Assembly (NCBI GenBank): GCA_947631865.1
Contig: CANRNF010000001.1
Location: forward strand, 29,286 to 93,285
Length of the DNA: 64,000 nt
Reading direction: 5' to 3'
Source: an uncultured Oscillospiraceae bacterium
GTDB taxonomy: Bacteria; Bacillota; Clostridia; Oscillospirales; Oscillospiraceae
The notes under the pieces were generated by a model. It saw nothing but the letters and a program-made list of their open reading frames with translations. It was not told the DNA's origin and did no database searches. The position numbers and the translations under genes were made by a program. This document shows positions 3,708 to 25,865 of the stretch, piece by piece. Each line of letters opens with the position of its first letter. The first letter of the stretch is position 1.

Positions 3708-5150
3708 TTGGACGCGGAGAACAGGACGACGGCGGCGGTGACGGAAGCTCCGGTGAAGGTAACGGAGCTTACCGGCAACACCAGCCGTACATACAAGTTC
3801 ATAAAGCGCGCGTTCGATATCGTCGTGTCGGCGGTCGGACTCATAGTGACCTCGCCAGTTCTCCTGGTCGCGATGCTTGCTATCGTATTAGAGGACGGTT
3901 CACCTCCCTTTTTCTTCCAACCGCGCATCGGAAAGGATTGTAAACCATTCTGGATGGTGAAGCTGCGGAGCATGCGGCCGGACGCGGAGCAGGTGTTGGC
4001 GCGGCTGTCTGAGGCAGAGAAAGAGGAGTTTTCCCAGAATTTCAAGCTGAAGAACGACCCGCGGATAACGAAGGTCGGGCACTTCATCCGCAAGACGAGC
4101 ATAGACGAGCTGCCGCAGCTCTGGAATGTATTGACAGGTGACATGAGTCTGGTAGGGCCCCGGCCGCCGCTGCTGGTGGAGGAAGAAGCATACGGAGAGC
4201 ATTTAGCGAAGGTGATGTCTGTCCGGCCAGGGATCACTGGTTACTGGCAGGTCCATGGCCGGAGCGAAATAGATTTCAGCGAGCGCATCGAGCTGAACGA
4301 ATACTACATAGATAACTGCAGCTTGTGGCTGGACCTGAAGATATTGGTTGCGACGGTCGGAGTCGTGGTCCACGGGGGGGGGAGCATACTAAAAGGTTCT
4401 GTCCGCAGGACAGGAACAAAGCGTGTTTCTTTCAAGCTTCCCCGGATATTGAAAGCGGCGCTGTACTTCCCTCTGCTGTTGGCAGTGCCGACAGCGGGAA
4501 CGGGCGCGGAGACAAAGGCAGAACCACAGAAGACGGAGCCGGGCGCAGGCTATCGCTTCGTCAAGCGTATGTTCGACATCGTGGCGTCGGCGATCGCGCT
4601 TATCGTTTTGTCTCCGTTGCTTCTTGTTGTCTCCCTTCTCATCGTATTGGATGATCCGAAGGGAGCGCCCATCTTCACGCAGACGAGGGTGGGCAAGGAT
4701 GGGAAGGAATTCCGGTTTTATAAGTTCCGGTCCATGGTAGTGGATGCTGAGGAGCGCCTGGATGAACTGATGGGCCAGAATGAGATGGACGGGCCGGTAT
4801 TCAAGATCAAGGACGACCCTCGAATCACGCGAATGGGAAAATTCATCCGTAAGACGAGCATAGATGAGCTCCCGCAGCTTTGGAACGTGCTTCGGGGCGA
4901 TATGAGCATCGTGGGACCCCGGCCGCCGGTGCCGCGGGAGGTAGCGCAGTACAGCGATTACCAGCGGCAGAGGCTGAGCGTGACGCCGGGACTGACCTGC
5001 TACTGGCAGGTGCGGAAGGACCGAAATCTGTGCAGTTTTGACGAGTGGGTGGAGATGGACCTGCAGTACATACGGGAGAGAAGCATAGGCACCGATCTGA
5101 AGATCATCTTCAAGACCTTTGGCGCCGTTCTGGGTATGAACGGAGAGTAG
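3708..5150 (+). CDS. Tandem (two-domain) bacterial sugar-phosphate transferase (priming glycosyltransferase), domains joined across a G9 tract
   Basis: Two copies of 'KR.FDIV.SA..LI..SP.LLV', 'RITKVGHFIRKTSIDELPQLWNVL.GDMS.VGPRPP' in one ORF; TTG start. Confidence 0.88.
   Translation: MDAENRTTAAVTEAPVKVTELTGNTSRTYKFIKRAFDIVVSAVGLIVTSPVLLVAMLAIVLEDGSPPFFFQPRIGKDCKPFWMVKLRSMRPDAEQVLARLSEAEKEEFSQNFKLKNDPRITKVGHFIRKTSIDELPQLWNVLTGDMSLVGPRPPLLVEEEAYGEHLAKVMSVRPGITGYWQVHGRSEIDFSERIELNEYYIDNCSLWLDLKILVATVGVVVHGGGSILKGSVRRTGTKRVSFKLPRILKAALYFPLLLAVPTAGTGAETKAEPQKTEPGAGYRFVKRMFDIVASAIALIVLSPLLLVVSLLIVLDDPKGAPIFTQTRVGKDGKEFRFYKFRSMVVDAEERLDELMGQNEMDGPVFKIKDDPRITRMGKFIRKTSIDELPQLWNVLRGDMSIVGPRPPVPREVAQYSDYQRQRLSVTPGLTCYWQVRKDRNLCSFDEWVEMDLQYIRERSIGTDLKIIFKTFGAVLGMNGE
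4374..4382 (+). repeat. Poly-G tract (G9) at the junction of the two sugar transferase domains
   Basis: cac-GGGGGGGGG-agcata read directly. Confidence 0.95.
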
Positions 5151-5173: not shown

Positions 5174-6139
5174 ATGGCAATTCTGGTGACAGGCGGAGCC
5201 GGATACATCGGCTCCCATGTGAACAAGCTTCTGGCCCATGAGGGCTATGAGACGGTGGTGTTCGACAACATGATATACGGCCACCGGGAGGCGGTGAAGT
5301 GGGGGACGCTGATCGAGGGGGATTTGAAGAACATCGGCCAGATCGAGGCGGTGTTCGAGAGGTATCCCATCGAGGCGGTGTTCCACTTTGCGGCCTATGC
5401 CTATGTGGGGGAGTCGGTGGCGGAGCCGGAGAAATATTACTACAACAACATCGGCTGCACGCTGAATCTGTTAAAGGTGATGCGCCGTCATGGCTGCGAC
5501 AAGATCATCTTCTCGTCCAGCTGCGCGACCTACGGCGAGCCGGAAAAGACGCCTATCACGGAGGACATGCCCCAGGACCCCATCAACCCATACGGGTTCA
5601 CGAAGTACGCAGTGGAGCGGATATTCAGGGACTACGAGAGAGCGTATGGGCTCAAATATGTGGTGCTGCGTTACTTCAACGCGGCGGGAGCGGACCCGGA
5701 GGGAGAGATAGGGGAAGCCCACGACCCGGAGACGCATATCATCCCGCTGATCCTGGATGCGGCCAGCGGGAAGCGACCCAACGTGAAGGTGTTCGGTACG
5801 GACTATCCGACGCGGGACGGGAGCTGCATCCGGGACTACATACATGTGAGCGACCTGGCGGCGGCACACCTGCTGGCGCTGCGGCACCTGGAGGCGGGGA
5901 AGGAGAGCCAGTTTCTGAACCTTGGGAACACGAAGGGGACGAGCGTGCTGGAGCTGATAGAGGCGGCGAAGCGGGTGACGGAGAGAGATATCCCGGTAGT
6001 GCTGTCTGAGCGGCGGCCGGGAGACCCGGCGATCCTGGTAGGCAGCAGCGAGAAGGCGAAGCGCGTCCTGGGCTGGGAGCCCATGTATGGAGATATAGAC
6101 ACCATCGTGCGGCACGCCTGGGCCTGGCACGAGCGGTGA
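5174..6139 (+). CDS. galE: UDP-glucose 4-epimerase
   Basis: '[20 protein letters not shown]', 'FHFAAYAYVGESV.EPEKYY', 'SSSCATYGEP', 'NLGNTKGTSVLELI'. Confidence 0.93.
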   Translation: MAILVTGGAGYIGSHVNKLLAHEGYETVVFDNMIYGHREAVKWGTLIEGDLKNIGQIEAVFERYPIEAVFHFAAYAYVGESVAEPEKYYYNNIGCTLNLLKVMRRHGCDKIIFSSSCATYGEPEKTPITEDMPQDPINPYGFTKYAVERIFRDYERAYGLKYVVLRYFNAAGADPEGEIGEAHDPETHIIPLILDAASGKRPNVKVFGTDYPTRDGSCIRDYIHVSDLAAAHLLALRHLEAGKESQFLNLGNTKGTSVLELIEAAKRVTERDIPVVLSERRPGDPAILVGSSEKAKRVLGWEPMYGDIDTIVRHAWAWHER

Positions 6140-6177
6140 CAAAGATTGAAAATCAACAAAGAAATGAGGGAAGAAAT

Positions 6178-7075
6178 ATGGTGAGGCGGGCCCTTCGGTA
6201 CATCGACAGAGTCGGAGAAAAATATGAATTATCTGCGCGTTTGTTGACGGCTGTCAAAAAGACGGGAATACCGGGAAAAGTCAGAGCACATCTCTATCTT
6301 TCAGAGGGCAAGCGTCAGAGAAAGCATCCGACAGAGGAGATGCTGAAAAGCCAGCTGTTCTTCCGGGAGAATCGTCAGCGGGCAGAGAACATCTTGGAAA
6401 TGCTGGCGGATGAAAAGTCAAAAAAAGTGTGGGGGGGGGGTAATCCGTTACCGCACTATGAGGGATCCATTCCCGCGTGAGCTATGTGACCTGGGTAATT
6501 GTTATTTCGTGGACGATATTATTCAGATAGAAAATAATGAGGTTTTTATAGATGCGGGTGCCTATGTTGGCGACACGATCAATGAACTCAAGTCCCTGGC
6601 CGGACAAAGAAATGTAAGACTGAAAAGAGTCGTTTCCTTTGAGCCGGAGGAGATCAATTTTTCTATGCTTGAACAGACCCACGGGAATGACCCCGATGTT
6701 GTGCTCCATAAGAAGGGGCTCTCGGATAAGGACGCGGAGGTAAAGTTCTCTGGCTCCGGCGCGGGGGCGAAGATCACAGACAGCGGAGCGGACGGCGCGA
6801 CGATATCTGTAGTCCGGCTGGACAGTCTGCCGGAGTGTCAGGACGCTACGTGGATCAAGATGGATATTGAGGGCGCGGAACTGCCTGCCTTGAAGGGTGC
6901 GGAGGGGATCATTCGGAGAAATCGTCCAAAGCTGACGATCTGCATTTATCACAGCGATGAAGATATGCTCCAAATTGCGGAGTACATACATGAACTTGTG
7001 CCAGGCTACAGGCTGTATGTCAGACATCATTCACTTGTGCCCCTGTTTGAGACGGTCATATACGCTGTCCCCTAA
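6178..7075 (+). pseudogene. FkbM-family methyltransferase, frameshifted at a G10 tract (candidate phase-OFF gene rather than a decayed one)
   Basis: ORF 6136-6480 and ORF 6410-7075 overlap; the frame breaks at G10 (6431-6440). Removing one G gives ...KKVWGGVIRYRTMRDPFPRELCDLGNCYFVDD..., a continuous FkbM protein ('FIDAGAYVGDT', 'IKMDIEGAELPALKGA'). Confidence 0.82.
6431..6440 (+). repeat. Poly-G tract (G10) in the FkbM-1 reading frame
   Basis: gtgt-GGGGGGGGGG-taatcc. Confidence 0.95.
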
Positions 7076-7120: not shown

Positions 7121-8377
7121 ATGAGCGAGCCAATTCGTGTTGCGCATATCATTGGCAAGGTGAGGAATGGCGGCGTTGAATCAGTCGTCATGAATTATTA
7201 CCGGCACATTGACCGAACAAAGATACAGTTTGACTTTCTGATAGATTCTGATTTTTCCGATGATGTATTTCGTACCAGTCCGCTGAAAGAGGCAGAGGAA
7301 CTCGGCGGCCGGGTCTATATCATTCCACCGTACCAGGATCTACCCAGGTATCTTTCAGAACTAATCAAGGTCTTTCGCAGAGAGCAATATCAGATCGCTC
7401 ATTCACATCTCAATACGTTAAGCGTTTTTCCGCTCTACGCGGCAAAAAAAGCCGGGGTTCCTATCCGCATTGCACACAGCCATTCTACTGCGGTAAAAGG
7501 GGAGCATGTGAAAAGCATGATTAAGTATAGTCTACGCCCGTTTGCAAAGGTGTTCGCCACGAATTATGCGGCGTGCTCAACATATGCAGGGGAATGGCTG
7601 TTCGGCAAAAAAGCGTTGGAACGGGGAGAAGTCAAAATCTTTACAAATGCCATTGATCTAAAACAGTTCAGATATGATGAAAAAGTGCGGGAAGAAACAA
7701 GAAATGAACTGGGGGTCCAGGACAGGTTCGTGATCGGCAATGTGGGCCGGTTCTGCTACCAGAAGAATCAGAGATTCTCTCTTGATGTATTTTCCGAGGT
7801 GTGTAAGAGAAACCCAAAAGCAGTCCTATTGTTCATTGGGGATGGAAAAGACCGCAAAATAATCGAAGAAGAATCAAGAAAAATACAGAAGGGACAAGTT
7901 GTCTTTCTTGGGAGCAGGGATGACGTTGGGAGGTTATACCCGGCAATGGACGTTTTTTTGTTTCCCACCAGGTATGAAGGACTGGGGCTGGCGGCGGTCG
8001 AGGCGCAGATGTGTGGGGTAAAAACGGTCGTTTCCCAGGCAGTACCATCTGAGGCGAGAATATCTCCCTCAACGATCGTTATGGATCTGTGTGCCGGGGC
8101 ATCTGCTTGGGCTGACGCTGTCACTTCTCCTTGCGTTGTCGAAGCGGTGCCGCAGGAGATACGCGAAGAATATGATATTTCCTTCCAGGCAGAGGAAATG
8201 GTCGATTACTATGAGAGGCTTTTGGCGGCGAGACAGTGTGAAATGACGACACAGAAGACTCAAAAAACCATCCGGGGGGGGGTACAACTCCTAACTGAAA
8301 ACAGGGGAAATGCCCCTGTTATATACATCACAGCTATTCCGGCGCTCTGTGCAGCCTCTGAAATGAAGGCGGCGTGA
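7121..8377 (+). CDS. Glycosyltransferase family 4-like (group 1)
   Basis: 'VAHIIGKVRNGGVESVVMNYYRH', 'AHSHLNTLSVFPLYAAKKAGVPIRIAHSHST', 'PTRYEGLGLAAVEAQMCG'. Confidence 0.88.
   Translation: MSEPIRVAHIIGKVRNGGVESVVMNYYRHIDRTKIQFDFLIDSDFSDDVFRTSPLKEAEELGGRVYIIPPYQDLPRYLSELIKVFRREQYQIAHSHLNTLSVFPLYAAKKAGVPIRIAHSHSTAVKGEHVKSMIKYSLRPFAKVFATNYAACSTYAGEWLFGKKALERGEVKIFTNAIDLKQFRYDEKVREETRNELGVQDRFVIGNVGRFCYQKNQRFSLDVFSEVCKRNPKAVLLFIGDGKDRKIIEEESRKIQKGQVVFLGSRDDVGRLYPAMDVFLFPTRYEGLGLAAVEAQMCGVKTVVSQAVPSEARISPSTIVMDLCAGASAWADAVTSPCVVEAVPQEIREEYDISFQAEEMVDYYERLLAARQCEMTTQKTQKTIRGGVQLLTENRGNAPVIYITAIPALCAASEMKAA
8274..8282 (+). repeat. Poly-G tract (G9) near the 3' end of the GT4 gene
   Basis: atcc-GGGGGGGGG-tacaac. 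Confidence 0.95.
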
Positions 8378-10991: not shown

Positions 10992-12065
10992 ATGGAAAAT
11001 GAACTGAAGCAGGTGGAACGCGACGCCTTATCCATATGCGAAGCGGCGTTCATCCCATGGGAGGCGCTCCGTGGCCGGCGTATCCTTGTTACAGGCGCGA
11101 CGGGCCTGATCGGCCATACGCTCATATATGCGCTCGCGGCGGCAAATCTGCGGAAGGGGCTCGGCCTAACGATCCTTGCGTTGGTCCGCGACGAGGCGCG
11201 GGCAAGACAGCGTTTCGAGAGCCTTGAGGGGAAAGAAGCGCTGGAGTTTGTATGTGGAACGGTGGAAGAACTGCCGCGGATCGACGGGCCGGTCCATTAT
11301 ATCGTCCATGGGGCCAGCCAGACTTCCAGCAAGATGTTCGTCGAGCGCCCTGTTGAGACCATCATCACGGCGCTGCGCGGGACAGAAAATCTGCTTGAGC
11401 TGGCCAGGGAAAAAAAGACAGAGGGGTTCGTTTATCTTTCCAGCATGGAGGTCTATGGCTTCCCTGAAAAGGGACGTAAAGTCACGGAAGATGACATCGG
11501 CGCCCTCTCGCCGCTGGATATGCGCAACAGTTACCCGATCAGCAAAGTGCAATGTGAGAGCCTTTGCTGTGCATATGCCAGGGAATACGGTGTGCCGGCG
11601 AAGGTGCTGCGTCTGACACAGACCTTTGGCCCGGGCGTAAACTACGTGGACCAGCGCATCTTTGCGCAGATCGGCCGCTGTGTCATGGAGAAGCGGGACA
11701 TCGTTCTGCGCACCCGCGGCGAGACGGAGCGCAGCTATCTCTACACGGCGGACGCAGCGACAGCCATTCTTGCGGTCCTTCTCTTGGGCCAGCCGGGCAG
11801 CGCTTACAACGCCGCGGACGAGAGCACATACTGCTCCATCGCGGACATGGCCCGGCGTATTGCCGAGAAGAACGGTATCAGGGTGCGGTTTGAATTGGCG
11901 GATGAGAAGGCGCTGGGCTACCCAAAGACGCTGTATATGGACCTGGATACCGGGCGGCTGAGAGGCCTCGGATGGGCTCCGGGGGGGGGTTCAGCTATGA
12001 GCCTTGAGGATATGTATGAAAACATGATGTTTTCTTGGAAAGAACATGGAGTTTTCCATGGGTGA
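10992..12065 (+). CDS. NAD-dependent epimerase/dehydratase
   Basis: 'RRILVTGATGLIGHTLIYAL', 'FVYLSSMEVYG', 'YPISKVQCESLC', 'LTQTFGPGV'. Confidence 0.87.
   Translation: MENELKQVERDALSICEAAFIPWEALRGRRILVTGATGLIGHTLIYALAAANLRKGLGLTILALVRDEARARQRFESLEGKEALEFVCGTVEELPRIDGPVHYIVHGASQTSSKMFVERPVETIITALRGTENLLELAREKKTEGFVYLSSMEVYGFPEKGRKVTEDDIGALSPLDMRNSYPISKVQCESLCCAYAREYGVPAKVLRLTQTFGPGVNYVDQRIFAQIGRCVMEKRDIVLRTRGETERSYLYTADAATAILAVLLLGQPGSAYNAADESTYCSIADMARRIAEKNGIRVRFELADEKALGYPKTLYMDLDTGRLRGLGWAPGGGSAMSLEDMYENMMFSWKEHGVFHG
11981..11989 (+). repeat. Poly-G tract (G9) near the 3' end of the epimerase gene
   Basis: ctcc-GGGGGGGGG-ttcagc. Confidence 0.95.
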
Positions 12066-24081: not shown

Positions 24082-25865
24082 AAGAGTTAGAATATCCCTT
24101 TGACGCGGAATACATACTGAGTAAGAAAAAGAAGATCCGCCGGGAAATTCTATCGGGGGGGGGTATATATTCCCTTGTCGATAAGAAGATTGCCATCCTG
24201 GGCGGGTCTACCACCAGCGACATCAAGCTGATCCTGGAGCTCTTCCTGCTCAATTACGGTATTCGGCCCACGTTTTATGAGTCGGAGTACAACCAGTATT
24301 ATCAGGATGCCATGTTCCCCAACGCCGAACTGGAGGCGTTTGCGCCGGACGTCATCTATATCCACACCAGCAACCGGAATGTGACCACTTACCCCCAGGT
24401 GGCGGACAGCGCCGAGACGGTGGATAGGCTCATCCAGACCGAGGTGGACAAGTTCACGGGCATGTGGGACCGACTGGCCTCGGTGTATCATTGCCCAATC
24501 ATCCAGAACAATTTTGAAATGCCCTTGTATCGCCTCATGGGCAACCGGGACGCATACGACATTCATGGCGCCGTGAACTTTCTGACGCGGCTGAACATGA
24601 AGTTCTATGATTACGCCCAGACCCATGAGAATTTCTATATCTGCGACATCAATTATATATCTGCTGACTACGGCCTGAAGGAATGGTCGAAGCCGTTCTA
24701 TTGGCATATGTACAAGTATGCCCTGAACGTCTCCGCCATTCCTTATTTGTCGTTCAATGTGGCGAATATCATCAAGTCCATTTTCGGCAAGAACAAGAAG
24801 GGTTTCGTGCTGGACTTGGACAACACCCTCTGGGGCGGTGTCATAGGGGACGACGGCGTGGACAATATCGTGCTGGGGCCGGAGGAGTCCGAGGGGCAGG
24901 CCTATTCGGAGTTCCAGCGGTATATCAAGGCTCACCAGCAGCTGGGGGTGTTGCTGAACATCGACTCCAAGAACGACCATGAAAACGCCATCGCCGGTAT
25001 CAAGCACGGTGACAGCGCCTTTACGGAGGACGACTTCATCTGCATCAAGGCCAACTGGGATCCCAAGGATCGGAACTTCGCCGCCATCGCCAAGGAGCTG
25101 AACTTGCTGCCGGAGAGCCTGGTGTTCATTGACGACAACCCAGCGGAGCGGCACATCGTCACCGAGCAGCTCAAGGGCGTGCAGGCGCCGGCCATCGGGG
25201 ACGTGACAGAGTACATCCAGAACATTGACCGGTCCGGGTTCTTTGAGGTGACGACCCTGTCCAAGGACGACCTGAAGCGCAACGAGATGTACCGGGAGAA
25301 CGTGCAGAGGGCCCAGCTGGAGGCCAGCTTCGCGGACTACAACGAGTATCTGCTGAGCCTTGACATGACTGCGGTCATTAAGCCCTTCGAGCCGGTCTAC
25401 ATGGCCCGGATCGCCCAGCTGAGCAATAAATCCAACCAGTTCAACCTGACGACCCGGCGCTATACGCAGGCGGAGATAGAGGAAACAGCGGCGGACCCGA
25501 ACTACATCACACTGTATGGCAAGCTGACGGACCGGTTCGGTGACAACGGTGTGGTGTCGGTGGTGATCGGCCATGTGATGGGCGAAGAGTGCCACGTGGA
25601 CCTGTGGATCATGAGCTGCCGTGTGCTGAAGCGGGATATGGAGTTCGCCATGATGGACGCGCTGGTGCATGCCTGCCAGGCCCGGGGCGTGAAGAAGATC
25701 GTGGGCCACTACTATCCCACCGCCAAAAACGGCATGGTACGGGAATTCTATGGCGTTCAGGGATTCACAAAGGTATCTGAGGACGACAAGGGCAACACAG
25801 ACTGGGAGTTTGCAGTCACCAACGAATATGAGAACAAAAACAACGTCATTAAAGTAGAAGCATAA
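24078..25865 (+). CDS. FkbH-like HAD-IIIC family protein (glyceryl-ACP-forming family)
   Basis: 'KGFVLDLDNTLWGGVIGDDGVDNIVLG', 'FIDDNPAERHIV', SGNH-like N-terminal half, acyltransferase-like C-terminus; adjacent ACP. Confidence 0.88.
   Translation: MKELEYPFDAEYILSKKKKIRREILSGGGIYSLVDKKIAILGGSTTSDIKLILELFLLNYGIRPTFYESEYNQYYQDAMFPNAELEAFAPDVIYIHTSNRNVTTYPQVADSAETVDRLIQTEVDKFTGMWDRLASVYHCPIIQNNFEMPLYRLMGNRDAYDIHGAVNFLTRLNMKFYDYAQTHENFYICDINYISADYGLKEWSKPFYWHMYKYALNVSAIPYLSFNVANIIKSIFGKNKKGFVLDLDNTLWGGVIGDDGVDNIVLGPEESEGQAYSEFQRYIKAHQQLGVLLNIDSKNDHENAIAGIKHGDSAFTEDDFICIKANWDPKDRNFAAIAKELNLLPESLVFIDDNPAERHIVTEQLKGVQAPAIGDVTEYIQNIDRSGFFEVTTLSKDDLKRNEMYRENVQRAQLEASFADYNEYLLSLDMTAVIKPFEPVYMARIAQLSNKSNQFNLTTRRYTQAEIEETAADPNYITLYGKLTDRFGDNGVVSVVIGHVMGEECHVDLWIMSCRVLKRDMEFAMMDALVHACQARGVKKIVGHYYPTAKNGMVREFYGVQGFTKVSEDDKGNTDWEFAVTNEYENKNNVIKVEA
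24155..24163 (+). repeat. Poly-G tract (G9) near the 5' end of the FkbH-like gene
   Basis: tatc-GGGGGGGGG-tatata. Confidence 0.95.

Follow-up and report, generated by a model that had tools for sequence, protein, structure and literature searches.

Architecture of the locus

The window analysed here is a stretch of 64,000 nucleotides from the 3.0-Mb draft genome of an uncultured gut bacterium (G000; 150 contigs, 87% complete), and among its genes is an open reading frame in which two phosphoglycosyl transferase (PGT) domains follow one another on a single chain. The frame opens with a TTG codon preceded by GGGAGAG and closes at the stop codon 5148-5150. Its features are the following.

3708-5150, forward strand: fused two-domain PGT ORF, 480 aa in the current G9 state
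3804-4370, forward strand: upstream PGT domain (PF02397, 230.6 bits)
4104-4109, forward strand: Asp-Glu of the SIDELPQ motif, upstream PGT domain
4374-4382, forward strand: G9 tract, the proposed switch
4383-4550, forward strand: linker of 56 aa, without ATG
4390-4392, forward strand: TAA that closes the upstream PGT as ...GGGAY in the G8 state
4399-4413, forward strand: imperfect hairpin CTGTCC-GCA-GGACAG, 16 nt 3' of the G9 tract
4449-4490, forward strand: hydrophobic segment LKAALYFPLLLAVP in the linker
4563-5132, forward strand: downstream PGT domain (PF02397, 237.5 bits)
4863-4868, forward strand: Asp-Glu of the SIDELPQ motif, downstream PGT domain

Each half of the ORF covers positions 1-178 of the 179-position PF02397 profile and scores far above its curated cut-off of 27 bits. 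SIDELPQ, a form of the SxDELPQ catalytic motif, is present in each domain, with D386 and E387 invariant in an alignment of 22 sequences, and both domains of the fusion would be expected to be catalytically active. A structure predicted from the 22 sequences has pLDDT values mostly of 80-95 in both PGT domains and below 50 in linker residues 231-274; its pTM is 0.57, and the mutual placement of the two domains is not predicted. The top PDB matches of the modelled domains are PglC (8g1n, 8e37) and WbaP (8t53), which have the same fold and Asp-Glu motif as each window domain; these solved proteins contain one such catalytic domain, whereas the window ORF has two end to end. No substrate is assigned to either domain, because every NCBIfam match falls below its cut-off.

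In the G9 state the junction reads CAC GGG GGG GGG AGC ATA CTA and the frame remains open to the terminal stop codon. Removal of one G yields CAC GGG GGG GGA GCA TAC TAA, that is HGGGAY followed by a stop, and addition of one G (G10) leads into an unrelated tail of 93 aa in the frame of ORF 4325-4654, so that a homopolymer near a 3' end is followed by a distinct ending in each frame. The two PF02397 domains in one ORF and the exact codons recovered at 4374-4392 thus bear out a preliminary description of this DNA, which had proposed a second complete sugar-transferase domain in the G9 frame, an H-G-G-G-A-Y-stop after loss of one G and a long unrelated tail after gain of one. The same description took GGGAY to be an ending typical of stand-alone enzymes, and unrelated stand-alone PGTs without a G-run do finish in GAY (SGCGAY-stop in L045, KGAGAY-stop in L051 and SRGAY-stop in L021); the G8 ending is therefore a natural one that looks like an ordinary C-terminus.

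PGT pairs in related genomes

Five genomes together provide eight pairs of adjacent PGTs, seven of the fusion type and an eighth, of different layout, in G006; further pairs beyond the window came from a protein search of 99 relatives together with GTDB species genomes. Apart from the window, the fusion-type junctions lie on contig C9 of the same genome (L070), in G033 (L041), in G032 (L039a, L039b and L040) and in a further MAG (L055). The upstream PGT ends with a run of at least G7 in all eight pairs, compared with none of the 62 unpaired enzymes among all PGT ends collected (Fisher 1e-10, a value overstated since the rows are related and not independent). Judging from these sequences, the tract is not at PGT junctions by chance. 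A fixed, homopolymer-free fusion in relatives, the outcome that the preliminary description had named as contrary to a switch, was not encountered in any of these pairs. A motif search of 401 family genomes for PGT-like ends with G-runs, a sample that left out G032 and G033, returned only the two junctions of the window's own genome and five unrelated sequences.

The G-run at the upstream PGT end measures 7 to 9 in the seven fusion-type junctions, and these occupy more than one frame state. Three are fused in the current assemblies (the window with G9, L039a and L040 with G7), and four are terminated (L070, L041 and L055 with G8, L039b with G7), ending in RGGTY, RGGY or RGGGAY before the stop. 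One additional G would fuse each of the four; conversely, one extra G in L039a and L040 would give an RGGGAY-stop end. In the G006 pair, which has a G8, the current frame stops beside the ATG of the next PGT, and with one G less it would end in RGGSSY-stop. L070 and L041 are the sole orthologous pair of junctions and have the same tract length (G8).

A downstream domain without an ATG start

The linkers of all seven fusion-type junctions lack ATG, and those of L039a, L039b, L070 and L041 contain no GTG or TTG either. TTG and GTG codons are present in the window linker, none with a visible ribosome site. A separate start of the second PGT is unlikely given the absence of both ATG and visible ribosome site, with TTG or GTG in the window, L040 and L055 as the candidates left for it. 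The hydrophobic segment LKAALYFPLLLAVP, common to the linkers of L039a, L040 and L055 and of low confidence in the model, and its relatives in the long linkers might tether the second domain to the membrane.

Between L070 and L041, whose downstream domains are both out of frame, this domain shows 59 synonymous and 22 non-synonymous differences (dN/dS 0.076); the window and L070 copies are separated by 35 and 10 (dN/dS 0.071). Strong purifying selection on a downstream PGT that is start-less and out of frame in either assembly means that the domain has to be translated at least part of the time. At the amino-acid level, the downstream module is 95% identical between the window, where it is in frame, and L070 on contig C9, where it is out of frame (G8). 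Identity drops close to the domain start, from which it follows that the junctions differ and the module is common.

A genome-wide repertoire of poly-G tracts

The window contains five runs of G9 or longer against 1.3 expected under a dinucleotide model. Its own genome, with tracts drawn from pattern counts and selected stretches, has 47 runs of exactly G7, 6 of exactly G8 and 45 of G9 or longer, where the decay ratio of 0.315 in the window predicts about 15 of exactly G8 and about 7 of G9 or longer. The corresponding counts are 27, 3 and 33 in G033, 25, 4 and 31 in G030, and 30, 1 and 28 in G026. Tract lengths are bimodal in all four genomes, whereas random decay would leave fewer runs at each greater length.

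Many of the tracts break a reading frame, and a change of one base in length would mend it. A G10 at 6431-6440 of the window, for example, parts ORF 6136-6480 from the frame of an FkbM-type methyltransferase (6410-7075, PF05050), and one G less joins them. At the locus that adjoins the PGT pair of G033, a tract like that at 6431 is a G9 and in frame (L169, position 5624). Another G9, at 24155 of the window, lies early in a long open frame, currently of 570 residues, and the opposite strand is open too. Nine small precursor-like ORFs (loci L153, L135, L132, L134, L137, L144, L148 and, in G033, L171) share a leader, M-T/S-x-x-KK with a V-A/S/T-GG motif later, that contains G9 to G12, the frame being kept in some paralogs and broken in others. 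They have no convincing NCBIfam family and are possibly phase-variable peptide precursors.

Matched tracts of G000 and G033 include several length differences, the clearest being G10 in L153 versus G9 in L171 at 99.3% identity over 303 bp. Lengths are equal at most matched tracts with close flanks (L130, L136, L146, L150 and two in L153), and because these come from independent assemblies tract lengths are called reproducibly. In G006 (contig C5; L167 and L168), G002 and G007, many C-G8-T tracts are found in place of runs of G9 or longer, as if the length classes of tracts differed between species of the genus.

Probable phase variation and competing explanations

The G9 tract is likely to be a site of slipped-strand phase variation that switches the second PGT domain on and off. 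It would act as a contingency locus, in which one-base slippage during replication sets the frame: in G8 cells ribosomes would stop the first membrane-bound PGT at ...GGGAY, and in G9 cells they would continue through the linker into a second, different PGT. The tract would control the second PGT, because the latter has no ATG start in the linker, and would leave the first essentially intact; the effect of such a switch is the addition of a second catalytic domain and not the exchange of one for another. Cells with one initiating enzyme, or with two on one chain, would differ in the choice of sugar-1-phosphate for the polyprenyl carrier, with a presumed effect on the glycan. The preliminary description had proposed precisely this alternation between a single PGT and a tandem fusion. 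Both states do occur at related junctions and the short form has a natural GGGAY-type end. Related genomes differ in tract length at other loci, and switching within a population is presumed. A point against slippage at the level of DNA is that several PGT junctions carry runs of just G7-G8, a length at which it is expected to be slower.

The main rival to the DNA switch is translational or transcriptional slippage, in which a -1 slip of the ribosome or a slip of RNA polymerase on the G-run would produce the short PGT and the fusion from one DNA at a set ratio. In its favour, the four terminated junctions would be fused by exactly a -1 shift, GGG GGG could serve as a slippery site, and L070 and L041 conserve a downstream domain that neither has in frame. 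The hairpin that the preliminary description placed about 16 nt downstream, as support for slippage as an alternative route, is located as described, and the tract with 71 nt folds with a z of -1.85. A related hairpin follows the tract at only one of the six other fusion-type junctions (L039b), which makes two of seven in all, and is missing at the other five; it was accordingly rejected as a conserved frameshift stimulator, and the combination of a slippery site with a conserved downstream structure that characterizes programmed -1 frameshifting is not found here. Moreover, the genomic state varies, with three junctions already fused in the DNA, a -1 shift in L039a and L040 would terminate, and tract lengths vary at matching loci. 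Overall, programmed slippage is an unlikely account of the locus, conceivable mainly at the junctions with G7-G8.

A fixed two-domain PGT, in which the G-run would be just glycine codons and no switch would exist, is less probable still. It agrees with the clean fusion in the assembly and with a hydrophobic linker segment common to the long-linker junctions; against it stand the G-run that never occurs in unpaired PGTs, the sister junctions whose frame is broken, the natural ending one base away, and an own genome poor in G8 and rich in G9 or longer. Least credible of all is an assembly or sequencing error that made or hid a frameshift in a locus with one true state, since, for all that these are draft assemblies, mostly metagenome bins, and homopolymers are error-prone, most matched close-flank tracts are equal in independent assemblies and the association of tracts with pairs is independent of exact length.

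Tracts at 3' ends and the next gene

At other 3'-end tracts, two of the frames often stop within about 40 nt and the third runs to the start of the next gene. The stop of the long frame lies between -10 and +2 nt from the next start at 15 of the 18 tracts with a downstream gene, some of these rows being homologous, compared with 23 of 226 control frames from genes without a G-run. Tracts of this type include those at 8274 and 11981 of the window (G9 each), L149, L140, L074, L070, L156, L168 and L175; the tract at 11981 is an exception in that its long frame stops at +22.

These patterns raise the tentative idea, to which we give somewhat less than an even chance, that the 3'-end poly-G tracts of these Clostridia act as a relay that would leave the upstream enzyme almost unchanged and pass translation, or not, to the next gene. 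The relay would have two routes, either fusion in frame with a PGT domain that lacks a start, or a stop exactly at the next start codon. In a plainer reading, 3'-end tracts would couple and uncouple the next gene, and because most of these genes also come with a possible ribosome site, they need not fall silent when uncoupled.

Relation to known systems

C-terminal phase variation by poly-G at the 3' end of reading frames has been described in Helicobacter canadensis, where three frames give three C-termini and sequencing reads show length variation (Snyder et al. 2010, PMC2823697). One frame possibly merges two coding sequences there (HCAN_0660/0661), and the likeness extends to the 3' position of the poly-G, the frame-dependent C-termini and the merger in one frame. 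However, the Helicobacter merger is a single case of hypothetical proteins, compared with seven fusion-type junctions here, each of which links two catalytic domains from the same enzyme family, the downstream one lacking an ATG. In Neisseria gonorrhoeae, NGK_1211 is fused with NGK_1212 in one frame (PMC5320596), and a meningococcal fusion of pglB2 with a phosphoglycosyltransferase through a poly-A tract is attributed to Viburiene et al. 2013 as cited there. As described in that citation, the pglB2 fusion involves poly-A, a Proteobacterium and a different partner, unlike the poly-G PGT-PGT junctions reported here. A published catalogue of genes that change frame at a nearby repeat includes, in what it lists, adjacent-gene cases, as here; its main text does not contain the term 'sugar transferase'.

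The mechanism class and a PGT example are thus already known, since the Helicobacter and Neisseria cases are published. In the open-access literature neither PGT-PGT pairs nor a Clostridial poly-G repertoire turned up, and there was nothing relevant on poly-G phase variation in gut Clostridia. New here are the PGT-PGT pairs, their recurrence and the poly-G repertoire in Clostridia.

Biological significance

Because the first sugar of a polyprenyl-linked glycan is set by the initiating enzyme of its pathway, switching this enzyme would re-set the whole surface glycan in one step. Should the relay pattern hold up, tracts at 3' ends, which annotation passes over, may control the gene that follows, and this would amount to phase-variable control of one gene from within the tail of the gene before it; across glycan gene clusters, such a relay would pick initiating enzymes as well as later steps. 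Slippage-based C-terminal switching, which the papers found place in Helicobacter and Neisseria, would gain a further setting in uncultured gut Clostridia, whose genomes contain dozens of poly-G tracts; the locus would also provide a concrete, testable device: an essentially start-less enzyme domain gated by one base.
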